The notes under the pieces were generated by a model. The model was not told the DNA's origin, searched no databases, and worked only from the letters and a program-made list of their open reading frames with translations. DNA of 21,609 nt from positions 1-21,609 of the IMG/VR virus record IMGVR_UViG_3300017917_003230; one strand, written 5' to 3'. Positions 1,763-20,633 of the stretch are shown here, piece by piece (within the stretch, counting starts at the first letter, position 1; the number at the start of each line of letters is the position of its first letter). The translations under genes were made by a program, and so were the position numbers. Origin of the DNA: a virus.

Positions 1763-2467
1763 ATGTTCAAAAAAAAACCAATACTTAGATATGAATCATC
1801 TTTAGAGTATTATCAAAACTCAATAGTTCCTGCAAAAAATAATATACCAGAATGGTATAAAAAAATACCACAATGGCAAGATAATGAAATGTTTAATTTA
1901 AAAAGAGGTTTAGGTAGTACTGTAAAACTATGCATGCCATTTTTTGATGCTTTTGCAATTGGTTATATGATTACACTACCTTATGATATTTACATAACAA
2001 TTGATGATGATGGAATGCCAGCCATAGGTTTTAGAAATTCAGTTATTCATCATCCTCGCATTAGAAATAATATAGCAAGTGAGAGTTTAGTTCCATTTGG
2101 ACACCACCCAGTAGAATTTACATGGAATTATTGTGTATCTTATACATTACCAAAAGGATTTAGTGGATTATTTACACACCCATTAAATAGAAATGATCTT
2201 CCTTTTACGACTATAAGTGGAGTAATTGATGGAGGAATTGTTATGAATGCTCATGGAAATGCTCCATTTTATATTAAAAAAGATTTTGAAGGAATTATTG
2301 AACAAGGAACGCCAATTGCACAACTAATTCCATTTCGTCAAGAAAATTGGAAATCTAAAAAAACAAAAAATTTAGTCAAAATAGGAGATATTCATGATAA
2401 TGCTGGAGGAAGTGTATTTAGAGGTTGGTATAAAAAAAATTTTTGGACACGTAAAAGTTATGAATAA
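1763..2467 (+). CDS. P-family paralogue 1, beta-clip (dUTPase-like) core, DUF6065-like
   Basis: This protein of 234 residues is one of five divergent paralogues in the window. Blocks in order are I-P-E-W-Y-K-K (28-34), T-V-K-x-C-x-P-x-x-D...G-Y (53-68), a glycine-containing hairpin with the HPLNRNDLPF element (139-148), G-V-I-D (153-156) and EGIIEQGTPIAQLIPF (176-191). The last two resemble dUTPase motifs GVIDxDYxG and GxRIAQL, so a beta-clip fold is inferred; the catalytic Tyr of motif 3 is not seen. I recall the family as similar to Pfam DUF6065, which is unverified. The start at 1763 rather than 1754 follows from the promoter and from the paralogue starting MKFKK. It stands alone behind its own promoter. 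Confidence 0.75.
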   Translation: MFKKKPILRYESSLEYYQNSIVPAKNNIPEWYKKIPQWQDNEMFNLKRGLGSTVKLCMPFFDAFAIGYMITLPYDIYITIDDDGMPAIGFRNSVIHHPRIRNNIASESLVPFGHHPVEFTWNYCVSYTLPKGFSGLFTHPLNRNDLPFTTISGVIDGGIVMNAHGNAPFYIKKDFEGIIEQGTPIAQLIPFRQENWKSKKTKNLVKIGDIHDNAGGSVFRGWYKKNFWTRKSYE

Positions 2468-2487
2468 TTTAAATAAATTAATATTGT

Positions 2488-2595
2488 ATGTCAATCAATA
2501 GAATTGTTATTTGCGAAATATGTAAAGAAGAAATTCAAGTAAGATCAGCAATGGCATATCAAACAATGTATAATCATATAAAGAGGCATAAATGA
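2488..2595 (+). CDS. C2H2-like zinc-finger microprotein, 35 aa
   Basis: The 35-residue protein carries C9-x2-C12-x17-H30-x3-H34, the ligand spacing of a C2H2 finger with a longer than classical loop. The stretch between the cysteines and histidines is helical and ends in basic residues (IKRHK), suiting nucleic-acid contact. Its stop overlaps the next ATG (ATGA at 2592-2595). No ribosome site is obvious. The assignment as a real gene rests on the ligand pattern and the coupling. Confidence 0.55.
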   Translation: MSINRIVICEICKEEIQVRSAMAYQTMYNHIKRHK

Positions 2596-2762
2596 GAAAC
2601 TCAAAAAAATTTAAAGAACTTATTAACCCTATAAATCTTACTGTTTATACAAAGTCTCCTGAAAAATGGATATTAATAGATAGAGAAACTGGAGAAACTT
2701 ACCAGGGTAATCCTAATGGACACTGGGATAGGCTTGATCCAGTAATTAAAAATAAAAAGTAA
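2592..2762 (+). CDS. Small hypothetical protein, 56 aa
   Basis: The protein is basic at both ends with a central beta-hairpin-like block (WILIDRETGETYQGN) followed by GHWDRLDP. The pattern W-x-L-I-D-x-x-T-G-x-x-Y-x-G resembles short phage proteins in which a strand-turn-strand holds a conserved Trp, but I cannot name a family. It is coupled by ATGA to the zinc-finger microprotein upstream and ends two bases before the promoter of the secreted protein at 2799. Confidence 0.6.
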   Translation: MRNSKKFKELINPINLTVYTKSPEKWILIDRETGETYQGNPNGHWDRLDPVIKNKK

Positions 2763-2763
2763 C

Positions 2764-2792
2764 TTTACAAAACAAAACAGATAGGGTATACT
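2764..2792 (+). promoter_or_regulatory. Promoter TTTACA-17-TATACT, leaderless
   Basis: The -35 box TTTACA (2764-2769, one mismatch from consensus) and -10 box TATACT (2787-2792, one mismatch) are exactly 17 bp apart. The ATG at 2799 falls six bases after the -10, so transcription should start on the start codon. There is no Shine-Dalgarno sequence. This is the clearest leaderless promoter in the window. Confidence 0.7.
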
Positions 2793-2798
2793 TATAAT

Positions 2799-3194
2799 AT
2801 GAAAAAAATAATAATAAGTACATTAATAATTCTTATGCTTCCTGTTAATTCTGTGCAGGCAGCAACAAAATCTTTAAACACAAAAAATAATAAATATGCT
2901 TGTAAAAATATTAAAATAAATTATAAATCAGAAAATATGGTGAAATGGGCTGATGGCTTGGCCAGTGACAATGATGTTTTAGAAGAAATTGAATCTAATA
3001 TTAATATGATATCTAGAAAACAAAAAAATACAACTGGAAAAATTAAATCAATTATTTTTTCTTGGATCAATATAGAAAAAAATACAAAAATTGCACTAAC
3101 TGATAAAAATGTTGAGGCACTTACTAATGCAATGACATTAAAAATTAATGTTATTAAACAATTTGATAATACTTGTAAATCTATAGAAAAATAA
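2799..3194 (+). CDS. Secreted hypothetical protein with signal peptide, 131 aa
   Basis: The N-terminus is a typical Sec signal peptide: KK at 2-3, a hydrophobic core (IIISTLIILMLPV) and a likely cleavage after Ala at S-V-Q-A (about residue 21). There is no lipobox cysteine. The mature part of about 110 residues is basic, lysine- and asparagine-rich, with two cysteines near residues 35 and 126 that could form a disulfide, and predicted mainly helical. No family is recognised. A phage protein exported from the infected cell early in the gene order could act at the cell envelope, for example in superinfection exclusion; this is inference. Confidence 0.75.
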   Translation: MKKIIISTLIILMLPVNSVQAATKSLNTKNNKYACKNIKINYKSENMVKWADGLASDNDVLEEIESNINMISRKQKNTTGKIKSIIFSWINIEKNTKIALTDKNVEALTNAMTLKINVIKQFDNTCKSIEK

Positions 3195-3195
3195 C

Positions 3196-3321
3196 ATGGA
3201 CGAAAAACAATTACGTGAAAAAATAGCCCAAGAAATTGAGGCTATTGAAATTGAATCTAGCAAAACAAATGCGGTTGGTATGCAAATTCTTGCTGCAAAA
3301 ATTGCCAGAAATCAAGAATAA
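3196..3321 (+). CDS. Helical microprotein, 41 aa
   Basis: A single amphipathic helix rich in Glu and Lys (MDEKQLREKIAQEIEAIEIE) is followed by a short Ala/Ile helix ending ILAAKIARNQE. That ending resembles the end of the protein at 3439-3651 (ASAAIARGQNE), suggesting a shared C-terminal motif A-x-I-A-R-x-Q. It starts one base after the stop of the secreted protein and has no clear ribosome site. No family is recognised. Confidence 0.55.
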   Translation: MDEKQLREKIAQEIEAIEIESSKTNAVGMQILAAKIARNQE

Positions 3322-3332
3322 AGTAAATCTGG

Positions 3333-3338
3333 TATCAT
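3333..3338 (+). promoter_or_regulatory. Extended -10 TGG-TATCAT, leaderless
   Basis: TATCAT is preceded by TGG and stands six bases before the ATG at 3345. No -35 box lies at 17 bp; TTGCCA at 3303 is too far. Extended -10 promoters often do without a -35. Confidence 0.35.
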
Positions 3339-3344
3339 AGAACT

Positions 3345-3446
3345 ATGTTCTGTGATTATTGTGGTGGTAAATTGATAAATGGAGATTGTGTCAACTGTTA
3401 TAAAAGTTCTAATGCCCTGAGAGAATTTGAGGAAGAAGATGACTAA
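3345..3446 (+). CDS. Minimal zinc-ribbon microprotein, 33 aa
   Basis: The 33-residue protein is essentially one zinc ribbon: C3-x2-C6 and C15-x2-C18, with the sequence FCDYCGGKL between and around the first knuckle, then an acidic tail (LREFEEEDD). The double CxxC spacing makes coding very likely despite the length. It overlaps the start of the next gene (ATGACTAA, 3439-3446). A protein this small most likely works by binding a partner such as RNA polymerase, a nuclease or the ribosome; this is inference. Confidence 0.6.
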   Translation: MFCDYCGGKLINGDCVNCYKSSNALREFEEEDD

Positions 3447-3651
3447 TTGGACAGATGAACTTAATGATAAACAAAAAGAAGAGGTTTGGAATTTTATTGT
3501 TTTTACTGTTAAAGAAATAAGAGAGCAAATAGCCAAAGATATTGAAGCAACTGTTCCACTTTGGAAATCAAGAGGCTTATTAAAATCTCGTAGAACACAA
3601 AAAGCCTTTGAAGCATCTGCTGCAATTGCTAGAGGTCAAAATGAAATTTAA
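3439..3651 (+). CDS. Small helical protein, 70 aa
   Basis: The protein begins MTNWTDELNDKQKEEVWNFI and is fully helical, with an acidic first half, then a basic stretch (KSRGLLKSRRTQK) and the ending ASAAIARGQNE shared in outline with the protein at 3196. A TTG at 3427 extends the frame by four residues, but the ATG at 3439 is preferred because GAGG lies six bases upstream and the ATG overlaps the previous stop. Its own stop is overlapped by the ATG of P-family paralogue 2 at 3641. No family is recognised. Confidence 0.65.
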   Translation: MTNWTDELNDKQKEEVWNFIVFTVKEIREQIAKDIEATVPLWKSRGLLKSRRTQKAFEASAAIARGQNEI

Positions 3652-4360
3652 AAAAAATAATAAAAATATAATTACTTTTAGAGCACAGAATGAACATGTT
3701 TGGAAAGTTAGAGAAAAACCATTTCCATCGTCAAATGCTCTGCCAGAGTGGTGGAAAGAAATGAAGCCATATAGTAATTTAGAAAATAAATTTAAACTTA
3801 ATCCAGGTCCTACAGTTACTGTAAAAAAATGCGCTCCAGCATTAGACGCATTAACTGCTGGATACATAGTTCCGCTTTGGACAGATGTTTTTGTTTCAAA
3901 AGAAAATGATATTCCATTAATTCAGTGGTCATCACAAGAAGTTGTGTTTGATACTTGGCATGAAACGCAAGTTTCTAAATACGAAATACCAGATGGTTTT
4001 TCTTCAACAGTATTAAAATATATTCATGGATGGACAATTAAAACTCCACCAGGATGGTCTTGTTTAATTACTCATCCTTTTGGATATCAGAATATACCAA
4101 TTAAAACAATTTCTGGAATAGTGGACACAGATATCTTAGAAACTGAAATAAATACTCCATTTTTTATTAAAAATAATTTTGAAGGAATTATAGAAAAAGG
4201 AACTCCAATGTTTCAAATAATTCCTTTTAAAAGAAGTGATTGGCAATCTAATTTTATTTTAGAAAATGAAAATCAATTATATTTTAATGTAGAAAAACTT
4301 AGAACAAAATTAATTGGATCTTATTCAAGATATCTTAGAGTAAAAAAAACTTATAAATAA
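3641..4360 (+). CDS. P-family paralogue 2, beta-clip (dUTPase-like) core, DUF6065-like
   Basis: The 239-residue protein shares all blocks of the family: L-P-E-W-W-K-E, T-V-K-K-C-A-P-A-L-D...G-Y, then TPPGWSCLITHPF, S-G-I-V-D-T-D and EGIIEKGTPMFQIIPFKR. The string PPG...L...P...GIVDTD...N...GII.KGTP..QIIP follows the order and spacing of dUTPase motifs 2 to 4, supporting a beta-clip fold. The start at 3641 is chosen because AGAGG precedes it and it overlaps the end of the previous gene; a longer frame from 3608 would run through that gene. It is the first gene of the block that continues into the glycosyltransferases, 11 bp downstream. Confidence 0.78.
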   Translation: MKFKKNNKNIITFRAQNEHVWKVREKPFPSSNALPEWWKEMKPYSNLENKFKLNPGPTVTVKKCAPALDALTAGYIVPLWTDVFVSKENDIPLIQWSSQEVVFDTWHETQVSKYEIPDGFSSTVLKYIHGWTIKTPPGWSCLITHPFGYQNIPIKTISGIVDTDILETEINTPFFIKNNFEGIIEKGTPMFQIIPFKRSDWQSNFILENENQLYFNVEKLRTKLIGSYSRYLRVKKTYK

Positions 4361-4371
4361 ATGAAATCTTT

Positions 4372-5331
4372 ATGTCTAATATAATTTTTCTTGGTAACTT
4401 TGAAGTTCCCTATAGCAGTGAGAATCATCATGCTAAGTCTTTAGAGTCTCTTGGACATACCGTGCAAAAAATGCAGGAAAAGAAAGCAACAAGCGAAGAA
4501 ATTTTATATAAAGCATTAGCATCTGATTTATTTATATGGGTACACACACATAGATGGCAAACCCCAGGCAAATTATCTATGACAGATGTATTAAAACAAT
4601 TAAAGGCTGTAAACAAAACAACAATGACTTATCATCTTGACTTGTGGTTTGGTATTGAACGTGAAAAAGATTTAAAGGGTGATGATTTTTATACAAACAT
4701 AGGTCACTTTTTTGCTACAGATAAATTAATGTGTGATTGGTTTAATAAAAATACAAGTGTTAAAGGACATTTTTTGCCTGCTGGCGTATATGATAAAGAG
4801 TGTTATATACATTCTGATTATGATATAAATAACTTTGAGCATGACATAATCTTTGTTGGTAGCAAAGGATATCACCCAGAACATAAGTATCGTCCACAAC
4901 TAATAGACTTTTTACGAAAGACATATGGAAAAAGATTTTTGCATGTTGGTGGAGACGGAGATACTGGAACAGTTCGTGGTGATGCACTTAATCGTATCTA
5001 CGCAAAAAGCAAGGTAGCCATAGGAGATAGCCTTAATATAAACTTTAACTACCCATACTATACAAGCGATAGGTTGTTTGAAAGCACTGGTCGTGGTGGT
5101 TTTACTATCTACCCTCGCATAAAAGGACTTGATCAATACTTTGAAGATGGCAAAGAAATTATATTTTATGAGCACGGGAATCTTGAAGATCTTAAAGAAA
5201 AAATAGATTATTATATATTAGATGGAGTAACAAGAGAAAAAATAAGAATTGCTGGTCATGAACGAACTAAAAAAGAACATACCTATGTTCACAGATGGTC
5301 TACAATATTAGAAACTTTAAACATCAAATGA
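4372..5331 (+). CDS. CgeB-like glycosyltransferase (GT-B fold), 319 aa
   Basis: The protein starts with a Rossmann-type strand (NIIFLGNFEVPYSSENHHAK) and an A-S-D-L-F-I-W block. The C-terminal half has D-I-I-F-V-G, a histidine-containing H-P-E-H-K-Y-R-P segment, and the donor-binding region S-D-R-L-F-E-S-T-G-R-G-G-F near residues 232-244, followed by G-L-D-Q-Y-F-E-D-G-K-E. This last region is typical of CgeB-type / Glyco_trans_1_2 (PF13524) enzymes, where the S/T-x-R-x-F-E-x-x-G-x-G pattern contacts the nucleotide sugar. It likely moves a sugar onto a glycan in the cytoplasm. Substrate unknown. Its stop overlaps the next ATG (5328), so it is coupled to the FkbM gene. Confidence 0.82.
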   Translation: MSNIIFLGNFEVPYSSENHHAKSLESLGHTVQKMQEKKATSEEILYKALASDLFIWVHTHRWQTPGKLSMTDVLKQLKAVNKTTMTYHLDLWFGIEREKDLKGDDFYTNIGHFFATDKLMCDWFNKNTSVKGHFLPAGVYDKECYIHSDYDINNFEHDIIFVGSKGYHPEHKYRPQLIDFLRKTYGKRFLHVGGDGDTGTVRGDALNRIYAKSKVAIGDSLNINFNYPYYTSDRLFESTGRGGFTIYPRIKGLDQYFEDGKEIIFYEHGNLEDLKEKIDYYILDGVTREKIRIAGHERTKKEHTYVHRWSTILETLNIK

Positions 5332-6035
5332 TAGAAATGATCAAAGCAACAGTTAATGGAGAATATAAAATAGTTTTACCAAAACATCGTGCTGATAGAC
5401 CTGAGTGGTATACAGAAAAAGGTTGGGAAAAAAATAGATTACGATCAATGCATAATAATCTTGGAATAAACGATATAGTTTATTATGTGGGCGGAGAAGA
5501 AGGAGAAATGGTTGCTCTTTGTCAAATATGGGGAGCAAAAACTGTGATATTTGAACCTAATCCAAAAGTATGGTCACACTATCCATTACTATGGGAATCA
5601 AATAATTTAGACAAACCAATTGCCTGTATTCCTGGATTTGCGTCTGATAAAATAAATAATTTATCAAGAATTTATTATAATGAATGGCCACCAGAAGCAA
5701 ATAATGTTATTGATTCAGCACACGGATTTAAAGAGTTATACTTAGAAGGTAATTCTTATGGTCAGATTACTATAGATTCTTGTGTATACGATCATAATAT
5801 TGTTGCCCCTACCGCCATTTCTTTAGACGTAGAAGGCAGTGAAGGGCGTGTTTTAAAAGGCGCAGAAACCGTTTTAAGACAGTTTAAGCCTAAGATATGG
5901 TTATCTGGTCATCCAGAGTTTATGATGCAACAATGGAATGAATACTTATATGATTTAAGATTTTGGTTATGGGGACTGGGTTATAAAGAAACACTGCTTG
6001 ACTATCAGCATGAAGTACATTTATATTATGAATAA
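5328..6035 (+). CDS. FkbM-family SAM-dependent methyltransferase, 235 aa
   Basis: FkbM-type signatures are clear: G-G-E-E-G-E as a glycine-rich motif I variant (residues about 48-53), the acidic E-P-N-P end of strand 2, and S-L-D-V-E-G-S-E-G-R-V-L-K-G-A followed by a proline after the last helix (about 163-185). FkbM enzymes O-methylate sugars or polyketide hydroxyls and commonly sit in glycan gene sets, which fits the neighbours on both sides. The start at 5328 overlaps the preceding stop as ATGA; a frame from 5295 would run through the previous gene. The stop is overlapped by the next ATG. The probable job is methylation of a sugar residue made by the adjacent transferases. Confidence 0.85.
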   Translation: MIEMIKATVNGEYKIVLPKHRADRPEWYTEKGWEKNRLRSMHNNLGINDIVYYVGGEEGEMVALCQIWGAKTVIFEPNPKVWSHYPLLWESNNLDKPIACIPGFASDKINNLSRIYYNEWPPEANNVIDSAHGFKELYLEGNSYGQITIDSCVYDHNIVAPTAISLDVEGSEGRVLKGAETVLRQFKPKIWLSGHPEFMMQQWNEYLYDLRFWLWGLGYKETLLDYQHEVHLYYE

Positions 6036-6882
6036 TATTAAAACATATTTATATTCTGTTAAAGAAGAAGATTGTGCTGCTGACAAATGGGACTATGGAT
6101 TATTAAAAGAAATATTTAATAAAAATAAAATTAAACAAATTAAAGTAACATCTTTACCAGAGTGTGATCGTGCTTTTGTTGTAATTCCTGGACCACAAAA
6201 TATAGAATATGAAGATGTAATAAATGTAGAATTGCAAAAAATAAAAAGACTTGTTTTGTTTATTACTGGAGATGAAAGTGCAACATTTAATATTGAAAAA
6301 ATTAAACATAACAATTGTGAAATTTGGATTCAGTATCCACATAAAAAACATCAAAAATATAATAAATTGCCAATAGGAGTTCCACAACATTTATCAAAAA
6401 ATTTGCCAGACTATCAAAATAAAGTGTATGATGTATTTTTTTCTGGTCAAATAACTCACCAAAGAAGAAAACAATTGGCTGCCGTTATGCCTAATATTCC
6501 AAATTCTTTTTATAATCCTACCAAAGGTTTTGCCGAAGGATTAAAACCTAAAAACTATTACGATAAAATGTTTATTAGCAAAATTGTTCCTTGTCCAAGT
6601 GGTGCGGAAGTAATTGATTCTTTTAGATTTTTTGAAGCCATTGAAATGCTTTGTTTACCAATAGGAGATAAAATAGACTCAAAAGGTATAAATACTGATT
6701 TTTTTAATTTTGTTTTTGAGGATAATCATTCTATAAAAACAGTTGAAAATTGGTCAGACCTTGTTGACATGATGCCATACCTGTTAGATGTTTATGTGTC
6801 TGAAATGCATCAAATTGTTTGTTGGTGGATTAAATATAAAAGAGATTTATCTATTAAAATCATGGAGCAAATAAATGCATAA
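6028..6882 (+). CDS. Exostosin-like (GT47-type) glycosyltransferase, 284 aa
   Basis: The middle reads V-Y-D-V-F-F-S-G-Q-I-T-H-Q-R-R-K (about 138-153), a glycine turn opening the C-terminal domain as in exostosin-like GT-B proteins. It is followed by K-I-V-P-C-P-S-G-A-E-V-I-D-S-F-R-F-F-E-A-I-E-M-L (about 188-211), the conserved donor-binding stretch in which the enzyme reads S-x-R-x-x-E-A. The N-terminal half is less conserved. It likely works with the adjacent transferases on the same glycan. The ATG at 6028 overlaps the FkbM stop by 8 bp; an ATG at 5998 would lie deep in the FkbM gene. The end overlaps the next gene at 6875. Confidence 0.7.
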   Translation: MNNIKTYLYSVKEEDCAADKWDYGLLKEIFNKNKIKQIKVTSLPECDRAFVVIPGPQNIEYEDVINVELQKIKRLVLFITGDESATFNIEKIKHNNCEIWIQYPHKKHQKYNKLPIGVPQHLSKNLPDYQNKVYDVFFSGQITHQRRKQLAAVMPNIPNSFYNPTKGFAEGLKPKNYYDKMFISKIVPCPSGAEVIDSFRFFEAIEMLCLPIGDKIDSKGINTDFFNFVFEDNHSIKTVENWSDLVDMMPYLLDVYVSEMHQIVCWWIKYKRDLSIKIMEQINA

Positions 6883-7636
6883 AAATGATATAACGATTAT
6901 TTTAGCAACATCTGTCATACCAGATCATCCTAATACCACTATGATAGAACAAACAATTGGTGACCTTCGTGTTCATTTTCCAGATAATGAAATTATAATG
7001 CAGATAGATGGATTAAGACTAGAACAACAGAATCGCAAAAAAGATTACGATGAATACAAAAATCGTATACTTTGGAAATGTTTGCATGAATATAAAAACA
7101 TAGTTCCATTTGTTTTTAAACAGCATAGTCATCAAACAAATATGATGCGTGAAACAATCAATGAAATTAAAACACCTCTTTTACTTTATGTAGAAGGAGA
7201 CGCACCACTAACGCCAGATATGCCAATTGATTGGGAAAAATGTTTAGATATGTTTGAATATAAAAAGGCTAACACTATTCGTTTTCATTTTGAATCAAGA
7301 ATTCCTAAAGAACATGAACACCTAATGTTTGGAATTGAAGATGGCTTTATGAAAACAGCACAATGGAGTCAAAGACCACATTTAAGCACAAAGTCTTATT
7401 ACAAAGATATTGTATTGCCAAGTTGCAAAGATATATTCTTTATAGAAGACACTTTTCATGGCAAATTACAAGATGAAATATTACCTTATGATAAATACAG
7501 TGAAGATGGTTGGCAACAACATAAACTATGGATATATCACCCAGAGGGACATATTAAAAGATCTTATCACTTGGATGGTCGTCAGGGTACCCGCAAATTT
7601 ACTTCAGATGATGAAACCTGGGGTTATAAAGAATGA
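6875..7636 (+). CDS. GT-A-type glycosyltransferase-like protein, 253 aa
   Basis: The protein opens with an I-T-I-I-L-A-T-S strand and a helix (TTMIEQTIGDLR), typical of the start of a family-2-like GT-A domain. A central strand ends L-L-Y-V-E-G-D-A-P-L (about 107-116), where E-G-D-A takes the place of the metal-binding DxD. A later segment has S-Q-R-P-H-L-S and F-F-I-E-D-T-F-H-G (about 190-198), with the acid-acid pair expected for the catalytic region. It is coupled by an 8-bp overlap to the exostosin-like gene and by ATGA at 7633 to the next. Donor and acceptor unknown. An atypical member; assignment is by pattern only. Confidence 0.7.
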   Translation: MHKNDITIILATSVIPDHPNTTMIEQTIGDLRVHFPDNEIIMQIDGLRLEQQNRKKDYDEYKNRILWKCLHEYKNIVPFVFKQHSHQTNMMRETINEIKTPLLLYVEGDAPLTPDMPIDWEKCLDMFEYKKANTIRFHFESRIPKEHEHLMFGIEDGFMKTAQWSQRPHLSTKSYYKDIVLPSCKDIFFIEDTFHGKLQDEILPYDKYSEDGWQQHKLWIYHPEGHIKRSYHLDGRQGTRKFTSDDETWGYKE

Positions 7637-8670
7637 GATTGGGAATAATAGCAAGATCAGACAATACTGGGCTTGGTAATCAAACCAGAGAATTAGTTAA
7701 TATGCTTAATCCTAATAAAATTCTTTTAATTGACTCTACTCCATTTAATAAAAATAAACAACATCCAGAATGGTATCAAGGTTATGATTCTCTTAAGACA
7801 AATGGATTTCCATCTCTTCAACAAATAAAAATGTTTTTAAACGATATAGATATTGTATTAAGTTGTGAAACATTTTATGATCAAAACTTTATAAGGTTTG
7901 CTAATAAAAGAAATGTAAAAACAATTCTTCAATATAACTATGAATTATTTGGCCATTTAGTAAATCCAAATCTACCATTACCAACGGCACTTTTATCTCC
8001 AAGTGTTTGGCAAATTGAACACATTAAAAAAATGTTTGGCTCCAAAACAAAAGTAATTCATCTTCCACCACCAACGAATGAAGAATTATTTAATAAAATA
8101 AAAGAAAATAACTTGTCTAAGTCTCATAATAGAATTTTACATATTGCTGGTAAAAAAGCAGCAAAAGATAGAAACGGTACTGAAACTGTTATTGATATGC
8201 TTAAGCACTCTAAAGCAGATTATGAATTAGTAATCAAAAGTCAAAGTGAAATAGAAACAAATATAAAAGATTCAAGACTTAAAATTGAAATTGGTAATCC
8301 AGACAATAGGGAAGACATGTATAATGGATTTGATGCTATGGTTTTACCACGACGTTATGCTGGATTGTGTCTGCCAATGAATGAGGCTTTACTAAGTGCC
8401 TTGCCAGTTTTTATGACAAATATATCGCCTAATAATTTTATATTACCGCCAGAGTGGCTAGTTAAGAGTGATTCAATAGGAACAATTAGAACAAAAGTTA
8501 GGATTGAATTATTTGAAGCAGATCAAAAATATTTAGCAAAAACAATTGATGACTATATGACTATTAAAGATAAAACATCTTACAAAGAAAAAGCATATAA
8601 CATTGGAGTTGCAAACTTTTCTCCAAGTATCTTAAAAGATAAATACTTAGAACTTATTTCTCAAATTTAG
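7633..8670 (+). CDS. GT4-like glycosyltransferase (GT-B), 345 aa
   Basis: The N-terminal domain begins RLGIIARSDNTGLGNQT, with the glycine loop of GT-B enzymes, and contains H-P-E-W-Y-Q-G and a C-E-T-F block. The C-terminal domain has a strand R-I-L-H-I-A-G, a lysine-rich turn (GKKAAKDRNGTE), E-L-V-I-K-S and M-V-L-P-R-R-Y-A-G-L-C-L-P-M-N-E-A-L (about 237-254), which is the donor-binding element of GT4 enzymes with the last Glu. It overlaps the previous gene by ATGA. It is the last gene of the plus-strand operon and its 3' end overlaps the convergent minus-strand gene by 17 bp. Confidence 0.8.
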   Translation: MRLGIIARSDNTGLGNQTRELVNMLNPNKILLIDSTPFNKNKQHPEWYQGYDSLKTNGFPSLQQIKMFLNDIDIVLSCETFYDQNFIRFANKRNVKTILQYNYELFGHLVNPNLPLPTALLSPSVWQIEHIKKMFGSKTKVIHLPPPTNEELFNKIKENNLSKSHNRILHIAGKKAAKDRNGTETVIDMLKHSKADYELVIKSQSEIETNIKDSRLKIEIGNPDNREDMYNGFDAMVLPRRYAGLCLPMNEALLSALPVFMTNISPNNFILPPEWLVKSDSIGTIRTKVRIELFEADQKYLAKTIDDYMTIKDKTSYKEKAYNIGVANFSPSILKDKYLELISQI

Positions 8671-9346
8671 TTTTTTGTTTAAACTGAGTCTTGAGTATAC
8701 TATTCCAAATAATATCAAAAGAACTATCTGCACTAGATAAAAATGTATGCTGATCTATATTTAAATTATAAGATTTAAAAACTAATGGCCCCCTGGTATA
8801 AACCTTAACATCTTGCATCTCTGATCCACCGACTTTAAATATATTCCCATACATAGATCTCCATAAAAATTGATCGTTATTATTTAATACTTCTTGTAAC
8901 TTTTCTTTTTCCATGATCATTGGAACATGTAACTCATAATCTAATGGATCATCAATCCCAAGTCCTTTGAGTCTTTTATATGTAGCATTAAGTTTTCTAG
9001 TATAGTTAGAATTACCGTTTATTTTTTGATATAAGTTTATTTTATTTAATAAATATCCGCCATGAAAATTCTCTATACTATCTATCTTTTTAATAATATA
9101 AAAGTCATCATTCATTAAAACAAACTCATTTGATATTTCTGGTGATGAACAAATCTTTTTTAAATTTTCTATAGCATTTTTATATTTAGTATGAACTTGG
9201 TGTACTTCAATATAATTTCCTACATACCAGTCAGGCTTACCGCCAACAACCCAGACATTAGAATCTGGAAAACTTTCAACGACAGACCTAATAGAATACT
9301 TTAGTTCTTCGTTAACGCCTTCCTTACATATATATACAAAGTCCAT
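8654..9346 (-). CDS. Stealth/GT-A-like sugar transferase, 230 aa
   Basis: The N-terminus MDFVYICKEG-NEELKYSIRSV matches the opening of Stealth-type capsular sugar-phosphate transferases and related GT-A proteins, and E-F-V-L-M-N-D-D-F-Y (about residues 73-82) matches the NDD metal motif of Stealth conserved region 2. A later D-Y-E-L-H-V-P-M-I segment matches their H-x-P motif. It is shorter than full Stealth proteins, so only the core is present. It would add a sugar or sugar-phosphate, probably to the same glycan as the plus-strand cassette, although it is transcribed on the other strand. GGGGGAAT precedes the ATG, and a strong terminator separates it from the holin-like gene upstream. Confidence 0.72.
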   Translation of the reverse strand: MDFVYICKEGVNEELKYSIRSVVESFPDSNVWVVGGKPDWYVGNYIEVHQVHTKYKNAIENLKKICSSPEISNEFVLMNDDFYIIKKIDSIENFHGGYLLNKINLYQKINGNSNYTRKLNATYKRLKGLGIDDPLDYELHVPMIMEKEKLQEVLNNNDQFLWRSMYGNIFKVGGSEMQDVKVYTRGPLVFKSYNLNIDQHTFLSSADSSFDIIWNSILKTQFKQKTKFEK

Positions 9347-9360
9347 AATTCCCCCATTGT

Positions 9361-9844: not shown

Positions 9845-10567
9845 TTAATTGCATTCTTTTTTTACCCATTTATTATTTTTATAAAAACCTTCTAAATTTA
9901 TTAAAGCCATAATATTATCAACATATGGATTATAATTATCTTCATAAAATTTCTTTTTTTCAGAAACCCAAGATTCTCTTTTTATAGGAATAAGTTGTGA
10001 AATTGGAGTTCCCGCTTTTATTGTTCCTTCAAATCCAACTTTAAGTACCATTGGCATATTTACGTTTTTATAAAATTTATCAGAATCAACGATACCATGA
10101 AAACTATAAAATGGTAAATCAAACCTTCCTAAAGGATGCATATAAAGTAAACTATATCCTGGAGGGGTTTGTACACACCAAGTTGTGTTTACTTTTAAAA
10201 TAATATTTTCATATCCTTGTGGTATTGGATATTCGCCAATCTGTTCAATTTTGTGAGATCCAATATATCCCTCATCGGTTTTTCCCCATTGAACCTTTCT
10301 TTCTCCTTCTTTGTTATATGTACAAAAAATATCATAAGGTAGTTTATAAGAATATCCATAAGTCATTGAATCAAAAAATGGAATACATGTTTTTGCTGTT
10401 CTTGAATTAAAAAAATCTTTAGATCCATCACTTATAATTCCATTATTTATATATCTTTTAAGATTTTTATACCATTTAGAAATATCATTTTTTATAGGTT
10501 CTGGGGCTGGAGTAACTTCTTCTGTGAGGTCTGTGGTTGGCCTAAAAATAATTTTTTTATTTTTCAT
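9845..10567 (-). CDS. P-family paralogue 3, beta-clip (dUTPase-like) core, DUF6065-like
   Basis: This 240-residue protein has the family blocks I-S-K-W-Y-K-N, T-A-K-T-C-I-P-F-F-D...G-Y, TPPGYSLLYMHPLGRFDLPF, H-G-I-V-D-S-D and EGTIKAGTPISQLIPIKRE. It has a distinctive acidic and proline-containing N-terminal extension (EEVTPAPEP). The core is closest to paralogue 1 in the P-F-F-D and D-L-P-F elements and to paralogue 2 in the TPPG turn. Its start overlaps the end of paralogue 4 by 11 bp, so the two are translated together. AGGAAAAAA precedes the ATG. It is the last gene before a 160-bp AT-rich gap that leads to the holin-like gene. Confidence 0.78.
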   Translation of the reverse strand: MKNKKIIFRPTTDLTEEVTPAPEPIKNDISKWYKNLKRYINNGIISDGSKDFFNSRTAKTCIPFFDSMTYGYSYKLPYDIFCTYNKEGERKVQWGKTDEGYIGSHKIEQIGEYPIPQGYENIILKVNTTWCVQTPPGYSLLYMHPLGRFDLPFYSFHGIVDSDKFYKNVNMPMVLKVGFEGTIKAGTPISQLIPIKRESWVSEKKKFYEDNYNPYVDNIMALINLEGFYKNNKWVKKECN

Positions 10568-11303
10568 TATTTTTTTTCCTATCTATTTTGTATGTTTGTG
10601 TTTTATGAAATCTAGTTGATAAATTAAGATTATGTAAATTAATTCTAAATAAATCTTTTTTTGTTGCCTCTCTAACATTAAATTTTGTTTTTTCTCTTTT
10701 AAAAGGAACGTATTGTGCTAATGGAGTTCCTCTTGGTATAAAAATTTCTTTTTTATCACTATGAATTAATAATTGAATATTTATTTCATGATAAACATCT
10801 GTATCTCTTACTCCAGGAATGACAGAAAAGTCTTCGTTAAAATGAAAAAATGTTGGTAACTGATATAATGAATATCCTTTACTTGTAAAAATATTCCATG
10901 GAATTTTTGTTTTAAAAACAAAAAAAGAATTTTTATTTAAAAATTTATGATCAACATAATCTAAATATTGACTGTTTGCATGAGTTTGCCAACTAAAATT
11001 AGCGTCTGAAACTGACCACTTCCAACTTTGATCTTCTGAATTATAAAATAAATATGAATCAACCCACATTGGAAGAATATATCCTTTTGAAAAATAGTCT
11101 GAAAATGATGGACAACTTTTAAAATTTCCAGCAAGTGCGCCATTAAATGTAAATTCTGTTTTTATTGTTGGACTTTTTTTCCACCAATCTGGAATATATT
11201 CTTTTGCTAATTTTGGTTTGCAATCTTCCAACATACTTAAACCTGGAACTGTGGTTACAAAATCAATTTTTGCTGTTTTATCTTTATTAAATAAAAAATT
11301 CAT
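10557..11303 (-). CDS. P-family paralogue 4, divergent beta-clip-like core
   Basis: The 248-residue protein keeps I-P-D-W-W-K-K, S-C-P-S-F-S-D...G-Y, G-Y-S-L, P-G-V-R-D-T-D and IPRGTPLAQYVPFKRE, but lacks the TPPG and D-L-P-F elements and carries two extra aromatic stretches. It is more divergent than paralogues 1 to 3, yet the block order and spacing are the same. The G-V-R-D-T-D and G-T-P-L-A-Q segments line up with dUTPase motifs 3 and 4. Its ATG follows immediately after the stop of the 118-aa membrane protein and its end overlaps paralogue 3. Two tandem, non-identical copies translated together suggest a heteromeric assembly; this is inference. Confidence 0.72.
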   Translation of the reverse strand: MNFLFNKDKTAKIDFVTTVPGLSMLEDCKPKLAKEYIPDWWKKSPTIKTEFTFNGALAGNFKSCPSFSDYFSKGYILPMWVDSYLFYNSEDQSWKWSVSDANFSWQTHANSQYLDYVDHKFLNKNSFFVFKTKIPWNIFTSKGYSLYQLPTFFHFNEDFSVIPGVRDTDVYHEINIQLLIHSDKKEIFIPRGTPLAQYVPFKREKTKFNVREATKKDLFRINLHNLNLSTRFHKTQTYKIDRKKNNEK

Positions 11304-11665: not shown

Positions 11666-12154
11666 CTATTGTACTCTATCTCTAATTACGTGAGTTGCCC
11701 AATAATATAAACATTTATCGCAGCAAGGTTTATTATGTTTACTTTTGGTATCTTTGTAGAACTCTGAATAATAAATATTATCTTTACGATAAAGGTTGGC
11801 TCTATGGGTAATATTGACACGATTTACATGAGATACCGTGCTCCAGAGTGGCTTATCAGTACCCCACAAATGCCCAGAAACGGTTTCCAGAGCGTCTAGG
11901 TTAGCCTCATTGCCATCTGTCCTAATACCCCTAAGCCTAGCCTCTTTAATCATAGAATTAGTGTATATGCGTAATGATTTTTCAGCATTTTTCCACATAA
12001 GTACCGCTGGATGATTACGCCAAGCACCAGAAGGTGATTTGCCAGAAAGGATTTTTAAGATTTGATAAGACTCTAATATTTGTTTATTTAATCTTTTATT
12101 ATCCAATATTTCTGCACATTGTTCATAGTCTGTGTAAGGTAAAAAAGTTTGCAT
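11666..12154 (-). CDS. PF03013 / MSMEG_6728-like protein, 162 aa
   Basis: The N-terminus MQTFLPYTDYEQCAEILDNK followed by R-L-N-K-Q-I-L-E-S-Y-Q-I-L, then W-R-N-H-P-A-V-L-M-W and an L-R-I-Y helix, is the signature of a family annotated as pyrimidine dimer DNA glycosylase/endonuclease V-like (PF03013) or MSMEG_6728. Catalytic activity is not demonstrated for this branch, and the N-terminal residue is not the Thr of T4 DenV. A role in processing damaged or modified DNA is plausible. The C-terminal CCDKC cluster is unusual and could bind metal. TAATG coupling links it to the upstream microprotein. Confidence 0.7.
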   Translation of the reverse strand: MQTFLPYTDYEQCAEILDNKRLNKQILESYQILKILSGKSPSGAWRNHPAVLMWKNAEKSLRIYTNSMIKEARLRGIRTDGNEANLDALETVSGHLWGTDKPLWSTVSHVNRVNITHRANLYRKDNIYYSEFYKDTKSKHNKPCCDKCLYYWATHVIRDRVQ

Positions 12155-12643: not shown

Positions 12644-13375
12644 TTAATTAAACCACTCTTCATTATCTGAACATGCATAAAAAATAAATAAATTGTTTTG
12701 TACAGAATACTCTCTATATTTATTAGTTGCTAATTCTACTAAATATTCTTTCATTTTTTCTGATTTATTAATTTTTTTAAAATTTTCAATATCGTTAAGA
12801 CAAGAATTTTTTACATTTTCTGTAAGATCTATACGATTAATATATTTATATAAGTTAAAATATTTTGGAAAATCTGAATTTATTGGTCCAGCACAATCTG
12901 TATATAAAAATATGCCATTTGGCTTTAAAACTCTTTTAACCTCTTTATAAAATAATCCTAAATTATCATAACAATGAGAAGACTCTACATTAATAATTAT
13001 ATCAAAACTATTATCTGAATAATCTAAGTTTTGTGCATCTGAAATTTTAAATTTAATATTGTTTTTATTATTATTATTGCAATATTCTATATTTAAATTA
13101 TTTAAATCGCAGGCATCAACACTATTAAAATTAAAATTTTTAGTTAGAGCGTTTATTCCACCACCTCTACCACAACCAATTTCAAGTATTGATTTATTGT
13201 CTGGATTAATTTTTTCAAATAACTTAAAATATAAACTTGCTTGATTTTTAAATTCTAAGTATTCACTACTAATAAAGTCATATGGGGGGTGATATCCATG
13301 ATTCATAAAAGCAATATCTGTACTTTCAAAAAAATTATTCATTTTATCATAAAGTTCTCGGTTATTTTTTTTCAT
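12644..13375 (-). CDS. Class I SAM-dependent methyltransferase, 243 aa
   Basis: Motif I is I-L-E-I-G-C-G-R-G-G-G (about 64-74) and the acidic strand-2 end is the D-A-C-D segment; a later block reads I-I-I-N-V-E-S-S-H-C-Y (about 126-136). The CGRGGG and NVESSHCY elements are characteristic of the branch containing mycobacterial Rv2952-type and related small-molecule O-methyltransferases (Methyltransf_11 fold). The substrate is unknown; a host lipid, glycan or small metabolite is more likely than DNA, because no target-recognition part is present. It uses GAGG before the ATG and overlaps the end of the WhiB gene by 14 bp, so they are co-translated. Confidence 0.82.
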   Translation of the reverse strand: MKKNNRELYDKMNNFFESTDIAFMNHGYHPPYDFISSEYLEFKNQASLYFKLFEKINPDNKSILEIGCGRGGGINALTKNFNFNSVDACDLNNLNIEYCNNNNKNNIKFKISDAQNLDYSDNSFDIIINVESSHCYDNLGLFYKEVKRVLKPNGIFLYTDCAGPINSDFPKYFNLYKYINRIDLTENVKNSCLNDIENFKKINKSEKMKEYLVELATNKYREYSVQNNLFIFYACSDNEEWFN

Positions 13376-13661: not shown

Positions 13662-13663
13662 GA

Positions 13664-13873: not shown

Positions 13874-13881
13874 TTCTTCTC

Positions 13882-14626: not shown

Positions 14627-14629
14627 TTT

Positions 14630-14791: not shown

Positions 14792-14799
14792 ATACCCCC

Positions 14800-16868: not shown

Positions 16869-16875
16869 GTTAACT

Positions 16876-16881
16876 ATTATA
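16876..16881 (-). promoter_or_regulatory. Extended -10 TGC-TATAAT, leaderless
   Basis: On the minus strand a perfect TATAAT preceded by TGC stands seven bases before the ATG of the mosaic protein. No -35 box is seen at 16 to 18 bp. The absence of a Shine-Dalgarno sequence agrees with leaderless start. Confidence 0.5.
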
Positions 16882-16889
16882 GCAGTAGT

Positions 16890-18370: not shown

Positions 18371-18397
18371 AACGCTCCTTTAATATATGGACAGTTT

Positions 18398-18417
18398 TAT
18401 GACATGTCCAGGTCATA
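18398..18417. promoter_or_regulatory. Inverted repeat TATGAC-n8-GTCATA
   Basis: A 6-bp perfect dyad with an 8-bp centre covers the predicted transcription start of the FmdB-headed operon. A second, overlapping dyad GGACA-n11-TGTCC is at 18389-18409. The position at the start site suits an operator. Confidence 0.45.
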
Positions 18418-18419
18418 TA

Positions 18420-18448
18420 AGTATACAGGTTTGCTAGTTATTTAGCAA
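18420..18448 (-). promoter_or_regulatory. Promoter TTGCTA-17-TATACT
   Basis: The minus-strand -35 box TTGCTA (18443-18448) and -10 box TATACT (18420-18425) are 17 bp apart. The -35 overlaps the end of the heat-shock gene. The start falls near 18413 and leaves a 43-base leader with a ribosome site before the FmdB-like gene. Confidence 0.5.
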
Positions 18449-18866
18449 CTTTTACTTTGATTTGTTTTGGTTTTTTATCTTCTGGAATGATACGATCAAT
18501 GTTGATGTGTAACATGCCGTCCTTCATTTCAGCGCCAGTTACTTCCATATATTCTCCAAGAGCAAATGTGCGGGTAAATTTACGACCTGCAATACCTTTA
18601 TGTACTACTTCTGCATCTTGAATTTCAGTAATTTCTCCTTTAATAATTAATGTTCCATTGTCTACAGAAACATCAATATTTTCTTGAGAAAAACCAGCAA
18701 CTGCTAAAGATAACTTGTACGTATCTTCGTCTAATTTTATAATGTCATACGGCGGATATGCCTGACGAGTTGCTAGATTGTGTACTGTGCTTAAACGTTC
18801 CAATTCACGATTGAAACCAATAAAAAATGGATCTTTAAAAAGATCCAGTGCAAATGAACTTACCAT
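18438..18866 (-). CDS. Small heat-shock protein (Hsp20/IbpA family), 142 aa
   Basis: The alpha-crystallin domain spans about 37-132: A-Y-P-P-Y-D-I-I-K then Y-K-L-S-L-A-V-A-G-F-S-Q-E-N-I-D-V-S-V-D and G-T-L-I-I-K-G-E, followed by R-K-F-T-R-T-F-A-L-G-E. The A-x-P-P-Y-D-I start is typical of bacterial IbpA-like and phage sHsps. The C-terminal I-K-V tail is the likely partner-binding anchor. These proteins hold unfolded proteins, here perhaps during phage assembly. A GGAG lies seven bases before the ATG. An extended -10 TATAAT is 61-66 bp upstream. Confidence 0.92.
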   Translation of the reverse strand: MVSSFALDLFKDPFFIGFNRELERLSTVHNLATRQAYPPYDIIKLDEDTYKLSLAVAGFSQENIDVSVDNGTLIIKGEITEIQDAEVVHKGIAGRKFTRTFALGEYMEVTGAEMKDGMLHINIDRIIPEDKKPKQIKVKVAK

Positions 18867-18926
18867 ATTATATTCTCCTTTTCAGCGAGTTTCATTTATG
18901 TACCCCCTTTTGGCAGGTACAAAACT

Positions 18927-18932
18927 ATTATA
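18927..18932 (-). promoter_or_regulatory. Extended -10 TGG-TATAAT ahead of the sHsp
   Basis: On the minus strand a perfect TATAAT preceded by TGG lies between the tRNA-Glu and the heat-shock gene. A -35 match is not evident. Repeated GGGGGTAC elements (one is the end of the tRNA) flank the site. It would allow sHsp expression independent of the tRNAs. Confidence 0.4.
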
Positions 18933-18943
18933 CCAAATTTTAG

Positions 18944-19015
18944 TACCCCCAAGGGGAATTGAACCCCTGTTACCACCGTGAAAGGGTGATGTCATAACCA
19001 CTAGACCATGAGGGC
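18944..19015 (-). tRNA. tRNA-Glu (anticodon TTC)
   Basis: The 72-nt gene folds as a cloverleaf: 7-bp acceptor stem GCCCTCA / TGGGGGT (with a G1-U72 wobble that is usual in actinobacterial tRNA-Glu), D arm with TCTAGTGGTTA, anticodon loop C-TTTCAC-G giving anticodon TTC, and T arm AGGGG-TTCAATT-CCCCT. The discriminator is A. The genome does not encode CCA; CTA follows. Confidence 0.93.
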
Positions 19016-19016
19016 G

Positions 19017-19091
19017 TGGAGCGGAAGACGGGATTTGAACCCGCAACATCCACCTTGGCAAGGTAGTATTCTACCATTGAACTACTTCCGC
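19017..19091 (-). tRNA. tRNA-Gly (anticodon GCC)
   Basis: The acceptor stem GCGGAAG pairs with CTTCCGC, the anticodon loop TTGCCAA gives GCC, and the T arm GCGGG-TTCAAAT-CCCGT is complete. The discriminator T is followed by an encoded CCA (included in these coordinates). It is the first of two tandem tRNAs on the minus strand and lies directly behind the secreted glycine-rich protein, itself unusually rich in Gly codons. Confidence 0.93.
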
Positions 19092-19101
19092 AACACTTAT
19101 A

Positions 19102-19791
19102 TTATTTAACCCAAGTTCCAAGTAACTCTATTAAAATATTTACTTTGTCATTTAATAATAAAAGATTAGAATCATTTATAATTGATCTAACTTCTTGATT
19201 TGTTTTTCTATTTCCTAAGTACAATGATTCTGTAATATTAGAATTTGTTGAAGAAATTATTGCTGTAGATTGTTCAGTCCAACTTTCAGTTACACCAGAA
19301 ACTTCTCCATTTTCTTTTATAAATACATTACCAGCAGCAAAAGTTAAAACTTTTCTACCAGAAACTATTGTAGAATTGTTTCCATCATTTTTATTTTCAA
19401 CTGATTCTGGCATAAAAACAGTAAAAGTTTTTGTTTCTCTATCATATGTTGTTGTTCCTGGTCCAGCCCAAAGTCCTTGTTCTCTTCCAGGAGTTTGTAA
19501 AACTACTGTTGGACCACCTGGTCCAAGTGTTCCTTGCTCACAATAATGATGACACACAATAATATTTGTAACTGTGCCATGATTATCTACAACTGCATAA
19601 CCTCCACCAACTCCTCCAATTGTTCCACCATTATTTCCACCTACGGTTGGTCCTAAAGTTGTTCCTGGATTCATATTAGTTACAACTTGTGGTCCAACAG
19701 TACCCATAACTACTTCCATATTTGCATTAGCAGGACTAATTGCAAAAGTTAAAAAAGTTAAACATGTTATGCTATAAACTATTTTTTTCAT
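19102..19791 (-). CDS. Secreted Gly/Pro-rich protein with signal peptide, 229 aa
   Basis: A Sec signal peptide (MKKIVYSITCLTFLTFAISP, likely cut after A-N-A at about residue 23) precedes a low-complexity region (about 29-110) with repeated G-x-x-G-P and G-G motifs, for example GPTVGGNNGGTIGGVGGGY. A C-x-H-H-Y-C segment near residues 80-84 may bind metal or form a disulfide. The C-terminal part is Ser/Thr- and Asn-rich, beta-like, and ends in a hydrophobic helix (ILIELLGTWVK). No family is recognised; a surface-exposed or adhesive protein is suggested. It has its own strong promoter (19820-19848) and a good ribosome site (AGGAG). Confidence 0.78.
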   Translation of the reverse strand: MKKIVYSITCLTFLTFAISPANANMEVVMGTVGPQVVTNMNPGTTLGPTVGGNNGGTIGGVGGGYAVVDNHGTVTNIIVCHHYCEQGTLGPGGPTVVLQTPGREQGLWAGPGTTTYDRETKTFTVFMPESVENKNDGNNSTIVSGRKVLTFAAGNVFIKENGEVSGVTESWTEQSTAIISSTNSNITESLYLGNRKTNQEVRSIINDSNLLLLNDKVNILIELLGTWVK

Positions 19792-19819
19792 TTTTCTCCT
19801 TTTGTAGTTTGTATTTTTT

Positions 19820-19848
19820 ATTATATATTAATTCATAATAAAAGTCAA
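19820..19848 (-). promoter_or_regulatory. Promoter TTGACT-17-TATAAT
   Basis: The minus-strand -35 box TTGACT (19843-19848, one mismatch) and a perfect -10 box TATAAT (19820-19825) are 17 bp apart, the best canonical promoter in the window. Transcription starts near 19813 and should drive the secreted protein and the two tRNAs. No extended TGN is present. Confidence 0.8.
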
Positions 19849-19850
19849 TA

Positions 19851-20633
19851 TTATATTTTTTTTGGTAATTGATGATTTTTAAAATTATTTTTTCTAAAAT
19901 CTTTTCCTGAATAATATAATTTATCTTGACCCAAATTATTTTTATTTGCAAAATCTCTTGCATTAGAGTGTTCTCTTACAATTAACATTTCATCTTGTAT
20001 TATATTTTTTTCAAAAATTTCATTTGAATCTTTTAATTCAAAAGAATCACAAAAATTTCTAGGAATTGGTAATATTCCCATTAAAGGATAATTTGCCTGT
20101 ATTTTAAAGTCTGTATTTGGAAAATCTATTTTTATATTTAATGTAAAACTAAATCTAATATTATCAGACTCTATTACTCCAGTCATAGGGCTTAAACCAG
20201 GAAGAGGAAAATTTGGTGGTGCAATTGTCATTAAATTTATTCCTGGAGGTGTTTTTAATGTTACTGGATAATGAATTGTAAGAATTCCATGACCAAATTC
20301 TGAAACTGGTTTAATAAAAGATTTATTATTATATTTTAAAATTTCTTCTTCAAAATATATTGAAAGATCATTAACATCATTACCACCATTCCACAAAACG
20401 TGAAATGTATACGGTAAACTAAAAACAAATCCTTGCATATTTCCAATTGCTAGTGGTAAACATTTATAAAAATGTGGAGTAAACCAATCTCTTTTATGAT
20501 TAATATTTAATGGTTTTAAAAATGTAGAAATATCCTTTAAATCAAACGGTTCAATTCCTTCATCGCTTATAACTGGAAACATTGCAATAGTTTTATCTGG
20601 AACAACTGGACCACCTTCTTGATTAATTATCAT
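19851..20633 (-). CDS. P-family paralogue 5, most divergent beta-clip-like member
   Basis: The 260-residue protein has the family layout in a more diverged form: C-L-P-L-A...F-S-L-P-Y, V-T-L-K-T-P-P-G-I-N-L, M-T-G-V-I-E-S-D, and a P-L-M-G-I-L-P-I-P-R tail segment that replaces G-T-P-x-x-Q-x-I-P. It lacks the W-Y-K-K element and has an N-terminal extension (about 40 residues) not shared with the others. The match is clear in block order but the dUTPase-like Q of motif 4 is missing. It is coupled by ATGA to the upstream proteasome-like gene. Membership in the family is inference from motif order. Confidence 0.6.
   Translation of the reverse strand: MIINQEGGPVVPDKTIAMFPVISDEGIEPFDLKDISTFLKPLNINHKRDWFTPHFYKCLPLAIGNMQGFVFSLPYTFHVLWNGGNDVNDLSIYFEEEILKYNNKSFIKPVSEFGHGILTIHYPVTLKTPPGINLMTIAPPNFPLPGLSPMTGVIESDNIRFSFTLNIKIDFPNTDFKIQANYPLMGILPIPRNFCDSFELKDSNEIFEKNIIQDEMLIVREHSNARDFANKNNLGQDKLYYSGKDFRKNNFKNHQLPKKI

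Follow-up and report, generated by a model that had tools for sequence, protein, structure and literature searches.

We describe five diverged genes in a 21,609-nucleotide stretch of viral DNA (IMG/VR record IMGVR_UViG_3300017917_003230, positions 1 to 21,609; hereafter, the window). Judged by profile matches, the five genes are one viral family, phrog_7084/DUF6065, with phrog_17480 as its remote sister. Their shared core is predicted, on models of genes 2 and 5, to be a beta-clip of the dUTPase type, and the dUTPase motifs have been lost; the fold prediction and the motif loss are the firm results. As to role, we put at just short of evenly balanced the reading that the family supplies a beta-clip component of oxidative or glycosyl tailoring of virion or surface peptides.

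Family membership, predicted fold, and motif loss

The five open reading frames (ORFs; Table 1) are intact where a first-pass annotation of the window had placed them, the motif blocks that it quoted are present, and all five match the phrog_7084 profile (E = 3e-30, 1.4e-45, 6.7e-46, 1.3e-46, and 9.8e-9 for genes 1 to 5, respectively). A family profile searched against the window ORFs of at least 80 codons recovered exactly these five. DUF6065 (PF19541), named in that annotation as a similar family, takes in gene 5 (113.1 bits; gathering cut-off, 26.6; E = 1.9e-32); genes 2 and 3 scored below the cut-off (21 and 15 bits), and genes 1 and 4 were unmatched at E ≤ 1. Pairwise searches (small search set) joined genes 1 to 3 mutually (E = 3e-33 to 4e-36) and gene 4 to the other window genes (5e-10 to 6e-18), and gene 5 matched gene 2 only (about 8e-5). 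The N-terminal block, given in the annotation as IPxWWKK, reads IPEWYKK, LPEWWKE, ISKWYKN, and IPDWWKK in genes 1, 2, 3, and 4; in gene 5, the equivalent of its Trp sits in KRDWF. Neither dUTPase (PF00692) nor dCTP deaminase (PF22769) was matched when genes 1 to 5 were scanned against Pfam up to E = 1.

Structures were modeled with AlphaFold2 for gene 2 (mean predicted local distance difference test [pLDDT], 89.7; predicted template modeling score [pTM], 0.85) and gene 5 (mean pLDDT, 84.0; pTM, 0.80), and genes 1, 3, and 4 were assigned to the beta-clip by homology. Against the PDB, Foldseek returned dUTPase or dCTP deaminase entries in 49 of the 50 rows listed for gene 2 (best E, 1.5e-3) and 47 of the 50 for gene 5 (best E, 3.9e-4), E-values that are modest; the remaining rows (one and three, respectively) were chains of 6h4c, an entry for a phage-island repressor complex in which the title leaves the matched chain unnamed. 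All 50 rows listed by VIA were dUTPases for either model, with a best Z of 11.1 for gene 2 (root mean square deviation, 4.0; 130 aligned) and of 8.5 for gene 5 (3.1; 125 aligned), the latter near the limit of 8 below which Z may reflect a common arrangement. Searched against predicted viral proteins, the gene 2 model gave uncharacterized or unnamed phage proteins on top, followed by dUTPases. When family profile A3 was aligned (hhalign) with an independent profile built from 29 dUTPases in two sets (26 + 3 sequences), Prob was 38% (E = 3.3e-4), and control profiles of SapC, 2-oxoglutarate (2OG) oxygenases, and dCTP deaminase (two sequences) all stayed below 1% against A3. The alignment pairs T-P-P-G-W with M-P-A-G-Y, G-I-V-D-T-D with G-T-I-D-S-D-Y, and G-T-P-M-F-Q with D-M-R-I-A-Q. 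The dUTPase/dCTP-deaminase-like core that the annotation had proposed is thus borne out by two predicted structures and by motifs 2 to 4, which fall in register, with models covering two of the five genes.

Motif counts were made on 112 members and 29 dUTPase controls; the member set was not thinned, so that 11 rows are more than 95% like another and some are window genes from other loci. The motif 1 pattern ([AS]GxD[LIV]-like) was found in 8 of the 112 members, in each case at or beyond residue 189 and never in the motif 1 place, and RS[SG] of motif 2 in 5, none at the motif 2 position; both were present in 29 of 29 controls. Where the phosphate-binding Arg-Ser of motif 2 aligns, gene 2 shows His-Pro. 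Full motif 3 (acid, Tyr, and Gly) was found in 0/112 members versus 29/29 controls, and the annotation had already reported the Tyr missing; the acid itself is kept as D or E in 97 members (Asp in 50, Glu in 47). Strict motif 4 (G-x-[RK]-x-x-Q) occurred in no member versus 25/29 controls, and a loose form allowing Pro occurred in 48/112. Motif 5, the Gly-rich C-terminal arm, was likewise restricted to controls (25/29 versus 0/112). Gene 5 carries Glu as its motif 3 acid (GVIESD); the motif 4 Q is missing from it, as annotated, and also from its close relatives. Because none of the 112 members has full motif 3, strict motif 4, or motif 5, the proteins are not canonical dUTPases; motif loss and the absent Pfam matches together rule out a canonical dUTPase or dCTP deaminase.

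The family has conserved residues of its own. A W...C-x-[P/S/A]...G block precedes the motif 2 to 4 region, and in this N-terminal half Cys is found in 112/112 members, Trp in 107, and Gly in 107; among 26 further bacterial homologues the counts are 26, 25, and 26. Only 4 of those 26 have the Arg at position 198 that is common among the viral members.

Copy number, paralog age, and gene neighborhoods

A 91,654-base IMG/VR contig carries the same genes at 100% identity. It holds six phrog_7084 matches, six likewise by our own family profile, and encodes one more distant paralog, phrog_17480. On a tree of 97 members, these seven copies fall into seven clades, each with genes of other viruses. 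Clade support (Shimodaira-Hasegawa-like approximate likelihood ratio test [SH-aLRT]) was 95, 97, 88, 96, and 85 for genes 1 to 5 and 98 and 95 for the two copies outside the window. Gene 3 groups with haloviral genes, gene 1 with a gene of another virus (L029:6432-7106), and the wider clade of gene 4 (23 rows; SH-aLRT, 96) takes in the cyanophage members described below. Since each copy sits with genes of other viruses, the copies point to old paralogs that were retained, and this scatter over seven clades rules out recent tandem duplication. The ratio of nonsynonymous to synonymous substitution (NG86) was 0.17 to 0.38 in all nine pairs compared, four of which include a window gene, indicating purifying selection, with the caveat of saturation (YN00 gave no result for seven of the nine). 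On the evidence of the tree, the five window genes are old, separately conserved paralogs.

The annotation had called so many copies unusual for a phage, which holds in part. At least two copies occur in 12 of 14 hand-picked long contigs, the window's own included; all 14 may be fragments, and G014 and G015 resemble near copies of one stretch. Six to seven copies are nonetheless the most seen (6 versus at most 4 elsewhere among the 14), and each of 11 isolated virus genomes searched (three haloviruses and eight cyanophages) carries one. The haloviral gene and four tested cyanophage genes match phrog_7084. Of 398 genomes sampled from the phylum to which an Azospirillum genome belongs, 24 hold DUF6065 above the cut-off, and bacterial members (Azospirillum and others) lie on chromosomal contigs.

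The five-sequence profile of phrog_17480 aligned with A3 (Prob, 91%; E = 9e-7; controls, Prob < 1%) and did not align with the gene 5-type profile A2 (Prob, 0.27%). It resembles a remote sister of phrog_7084, retains the C-P element, and in five loci (Table 1) lies a few genes away from a phrog_7084 gene; the PHROGs scan of these loci covered two, L025 and L065.

The clearest gene arrangement was found in cyanophages. A tblastn search with the S-CREM1 member returned 17 cyanophage records, of which nine regions were read. In seven of them (S-CREM1, S-RIM44, Syn10, Sf-FR1, P-TIM40, Sf-FP1, and syn9), the family gene directly follows a tryptophan-halogenase gene, that of Syn10 being annotated as hypothetical and corresponding to syn9 gp42; Sf-CH8 and S-RIM4, the other two, lack the arrangement of halogenase, family gene, and 2OG oxygenase. 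Genes downstream of the family gene gave 2OG-oxygenase matches in all seven cassette phages, and 32 such ORFs from five of them gave 13 Oxy_3, 12 Oxy_5, 4 JmjC_2, 4 Cupin_8, 2 DUF6445, and 2 PhyH matches. In syn9, the family gene is gp43, with halogenases gp41 and gp42 upstream and gp45 to gp54 downstream. Annotated fiber or collagen-like genes lie upstream of the cassette in S-CREM1, syn9, Sf-FR1, and Sf-FP1, and in S-RIM44, Sf-FR1, and Sf-FP1 the stretch ends with neck or head-tail adaptor genes. The cassette members form a single clade (six rows of the tree).

Across 48 nonredundant loci, 2OG-like genes were 24 of the 438 genes lying within five genes of a family gene versus 1 of 259 farther away; a directly adjacent 2OG gene was seen in 7 loci versus a permutation mean of 4.0 (p = 0.04). 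Beyond cyanophages, a 2OG gene directly precedes DUF6065 in two Pseudomonadota lineages known from metagenome-assembled genomes (MAGs; L111/L112 and L113) and in L116, a phage-like contig filed under Pseudomonas. Two proteins fuse a hydroxyproline-O-arabinosyltransferase-like (HPAT-like) domain to DUF6065 (L107:4155-5837 and L110:7029-8798; domain scores, 30.8 and 23.7 bits; cut-off, 23.9); both are from one planctomycete MAG (assembly PBTE01), one adjoining a 2OG gene and the other a Trp_halogenase gene. Within the window, a glycosyltransferase operon starts with gene 2, which ends 11 bases ahead of a glycosyltransferase gene. Family genes are directly adjacent in 10 of 47 nonredundant viral loci (the window virus included), mostly as pairs from different clades, and genes 3 and 4 of the window overlap by 11 bases (gene 3 start, gene 4 end).

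Several side observations accompany these loci. Six 2OG-like genes per contig were found in L016 and L017; six and five diverged 2OG-like ORFs surround family genes in L017:352-5916 and L031:5682-11436, of which three and two, respectively, show a simple HxD...H pattern, and the remaining ORFs may therefore be inactive or aligned differently. L115:811-3819 encodes a 1,003-amino-acid protein with two DUF6065 stretches and TPR repeats; after it (L115:3819-5465 region) come another family protein and a protein of PhyH/methyltransferase/TPR type. The pair of HslV/proteasome-like and gene 5-type genes recurs, the HslV/proteasome-like gene lying directly upstream in 23 of 32 fetched loci holding both (many redundant). 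A nucleotide search of the right part of the window against phages matched about 1% of the query (best 12 of 31 records), and the annotated records among those matches name a nuclease or tRNA. SapC (PF07277), considered as an analogue and as a homologous partner protein of halogenase/cupin clusters, was set aside after showing no profile similarity (hhalign Prob, 0.12 to 0.20%; no supporting paper found).

Table 1. Positions of family genes, aligned motifs, and neighboring features (window coordinates unless a locus is named)
Feature	Position	Strand	Length (amino acids)	Remarks
Family gene 1	1763..2467	+	234	phrog_7084; motif 3 region is GVIDGG; in-frame ATG at 1754 is an alternative start
Family gene 2	3641..4360	+	239	phrog_7084; structure predicted
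Family gene 3	9845..10567	-	240	phrog_7084
Family gene 4	10557..11303	-	248	phrog_7084
Family gene 5	19851..20633	-	260	DUF6065/phrog_7084; structure predicted
Gene 2 invariant Cys codon, residue 64	3830..3832	+		K-x-C-x-P; from alignment of members
Gene 2 P-P-G, residues 136-138	4046..4054	+		Aligns with P-x-G ahead of dUTPase motif 2
Gene 2 G-I-V-D-T-D, residues 159-164	4115..4132	+		Aligns with motif 3 (G-T-I-D-S-D-Y); Tyr absent
Gene 2 G-T-P-M-F-Q, residues 187-192	4199..4216	+		Aligns with motif 4 (template D-M-R-I-A-Q); Arg replaced by Pro
Gene 2 context	4372..8670	+		Glyco_trans_1_2; FkbM methyltransferase; ORF with subthreshold exostosin/uDENN; unmatched ORF; subthreshold glycosyltransferase group 1-like ORF
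Stealth_CR2-like gene	8654-9346			Below Pfam cut-off; phrog_7999 member
Pyrimidine dimer DNA glycosylase	11666-12154			Pyr_excise, E = 2.5e-19
S-adenosylmethionine methyltransferase	12644-13375			PADLOC mad2 match (E = 1e-17), probably via a generic methyltransferase domain
Hsp20 gene	18438-18866			Beside the tRNA genes
tRNA-Glu and tRNA-Gly genes	18943-19091			Adjoining
Gene 5 context	20630..21154	-		HslV/proteasome-like gene directly upstream
phrog_17480	L025:528-1277	-
phrog_17480	L065:3282-4013	+
phrog_17480	L088:5610-6344	+
phrog_17480	L046:2918-3619	+
phrog_17480	L029:7085-7801	+

Possible roles of the family

On the reading we favor, the proteins would not be dUTPases, and each would be a repurposed beta-clip enzyme or binding subunit acting together with 2OG-Fe(II) oxygenases, flavin-dependent halogenases, and glycosyltransferases. 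Their joint action would be the tailoring of (poly)peptides of the virion or surface, tail fibers for example, with each paralog directed at a target of its own or contributing to a mixed oligomer. We infer this from gene neighborhoods, which support it well in cyanophages and fairly in some freshwater phages and bacteria but give it no support in others. A more specific version, modular viral tailoring, strikes us as rather doubtful: the invariant-Cys beta-clip would be a target-recognition or catalytic core that steers 2OG-Fe(II) oxygenases, flavin halogenases, and glycosyltransferases onto peptides of the virion or surface, and each ancient paralog would set a different target.

A number of results weigh against tailoring. 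The 91.7-kb contig gave no 2OG-FeII_Oxy_3 match, the only halogenase on it is some 10 kb away from the closest copy, and no Oxy_3 match was found in 13 of the 25 records searched, three haloviruses included. Only 13 of the 48 nonredundant loci (L116 included) contain a 2OG-like gene of this kind, and five of the seven loci with an adjacent one (L070, L074, L075, L077, and L078) share one clade; the cassette members, too, lie in a single clade and therefore represent one ancestral arrangement. Halogenase proximity was rejected as a general freshwater rule (five loci, one to four genes away; Fisher p = 0.09, permutation p = 0.95). A 2OG link was likewise not seen in the Pseudomonadota DUF6065 loci sampled, where the 2OG profile found none within about 1.5 kb in 27 loci, three of which match DUF6065 weakly or in part; the commonest neighbor domains there are thioredoxin, TPR, and tRNA-editing (25 of 53 families listed; 97 of 174 segments scanned). 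Copies near ribonucleotide reductase (HF2, Serpecor1, and, with a primase, S-RIM4) or thymidylate synthase (HSTV-2) also count against it. The gene 5-type profile A2 found no dUTPase in hhalign (Prob, 0.16%) and no match in a search of PDB sequences, and the A3 search of PDB sequences gave two dUTPases at E = 0.85 to 0.92 with an antibody Fc ahead (0.23).

A nucleotide or DNA-modification role is the main rival to tailoring, and one that we rate as unlikely. The beta-clip would still handle a (modified) nucleotide; it might, for example, remove or produce an unusual dNTP used in DNA hypermodification, and the bases would then be the substrates of the 2OG oxygenases and glycosyltransferases. 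Such a role is consistent with the Foldseek matches of the predicted fold to dUTPases and dCTP deaminases, with the retained motif 3 acid (D/E in 97/112) and loose motif 4-like Q (48/112), with the ribonucleotide reductase and thymidylate synthase neighbors just listed, with one Mom and one C5-methylase gene among 101 neighbors, and with the 91.7-kb contig (possibly incomplete), which gave no match to dUTPase or dCTP deaminase. The Arg-Ser of motif 2, the Tyr and Gly of motif 3, the Arg of motif 4, and motif 5 are all absent, however; HF2 and Serpecor1 encode a separate dCTP deaminase, and the cassette of Sf-FR1 and Sf-FP1 is flanked by genes annotated as tail fiber and head-tail adaptor. Haloviral copies sit at the border between nucleotide-metabolism genes and tail genes. 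The nucleotide sensors suggested in the first-pass annotation find no support here, and the dUTPase motifs are lost or altered.

Its other suggestions concerned subunits of a hetero-oligomer and decoys for dUTP-linked host defense. Adjacent diverged copies could form mixed beta-clip trimers, whatever the substrate, which we consider possible if somewhat improbable: dUTPases are trimers with shared active sites, directly adjacent family genes recur in 10 of 47 loci, genes 3 and 4 overlap, and a pair of a gene 4-type gene with one of a second clade recurs in L084 and L087. The single copy in each of the eleven isolated genomes argues that one protein can suffice. Decoys or regulators acting on dUTPase-sensing host elements, in the manner of phage dUTPases that bind the staphylococcal pathogenicity island (SaPI) repressor Stl, seem to us very improbable. 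The fold is what favors them, staphylococcal phage dUTPases and dUTPase-Stl complexes being among the structural matches; against them stand the cellular homologues (24 of 398 genomes sampled from one phylum), the age of the family, and its purifying selection. No support for decoys came from PADLOC either, where none of the five genes matched a model and a scan of ten window proteins gave one match, the mad2 methyltransferase at 12644-13375.

Significance and comparison with known systems

For an unannotated family of cyanophages, haloviruses, and bacteria, these results supply a predicted fold and a separation from dUTPases that can be tested. They also link the family, in cyanophages and certain other lineages, to 2OG-Fe(II) oxygenases and tryptophan halogenase, genes that as a rule are counted among auxiliary metabolic genes and whose viral function is untested; such neighbors in some related viruses hint that the proteins took on new chemistry in place of cleaning up nucleotides. 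Were modular tailoring true, the unexplained cyanophage 2OG oxygenases and "tryptophan halogenases" would have a shared job, for which syn9 gp43 offers a cultured test case. Cyanophage 2OG oxygenases have been proposed to act in a 2-oxoglutarate/nitrogen role (PMC3037559), and 24 2OG-Fe(II) oxygenases are described in one phage (PMC9602691). Literature searches found no paper naming DUF6065 or phrog_7084 and none joining HSTV-2 and dUTPase; for dUTPase-type phage paralogs and 2-oxoglutarate/halogenase clusters, no title on the family was among the matches listed.

The S-CREM1 member, SCREM1_70 (OP535465), bears the depositors' label "triphosphate nucleotidohydrolase," which suggests that they noticed a dUTPase resemblance for one gene. 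The main text of the S-CREM1 paper discusses ten 2OG oxygenases and PrnA as ORF69, and "ORF70," "nucleotidohydrolase," and "dUTP" do not occur in it (PMC9964418). In PHROGs v4, phrog_7084 has no assigned function and is matched by all five window genes, weakly by gene 5; in Pfam, gene 5 is a DUF6065 member, and genes 1 to 4 are below the cut-off or unmatched. dCTP deaminase (PF22769) is among the Foldseek matches, yet none of the five genes matches it in Pfam; a genuine copy stands besides the family protein in HF2 and Serpecor1, and none was matched in the 91.7-kb record. The family resembles dUTPase (PF00692) in its predicted fold and in motifs 2 to 4, which keep their order and register, but it differs in lacking the dUTPase motif set, in length (234 to 260 amino acids versus 112 to 177 for most matched chains), and in its additional N-terminal W...C-x-P block and C-terminal helix.

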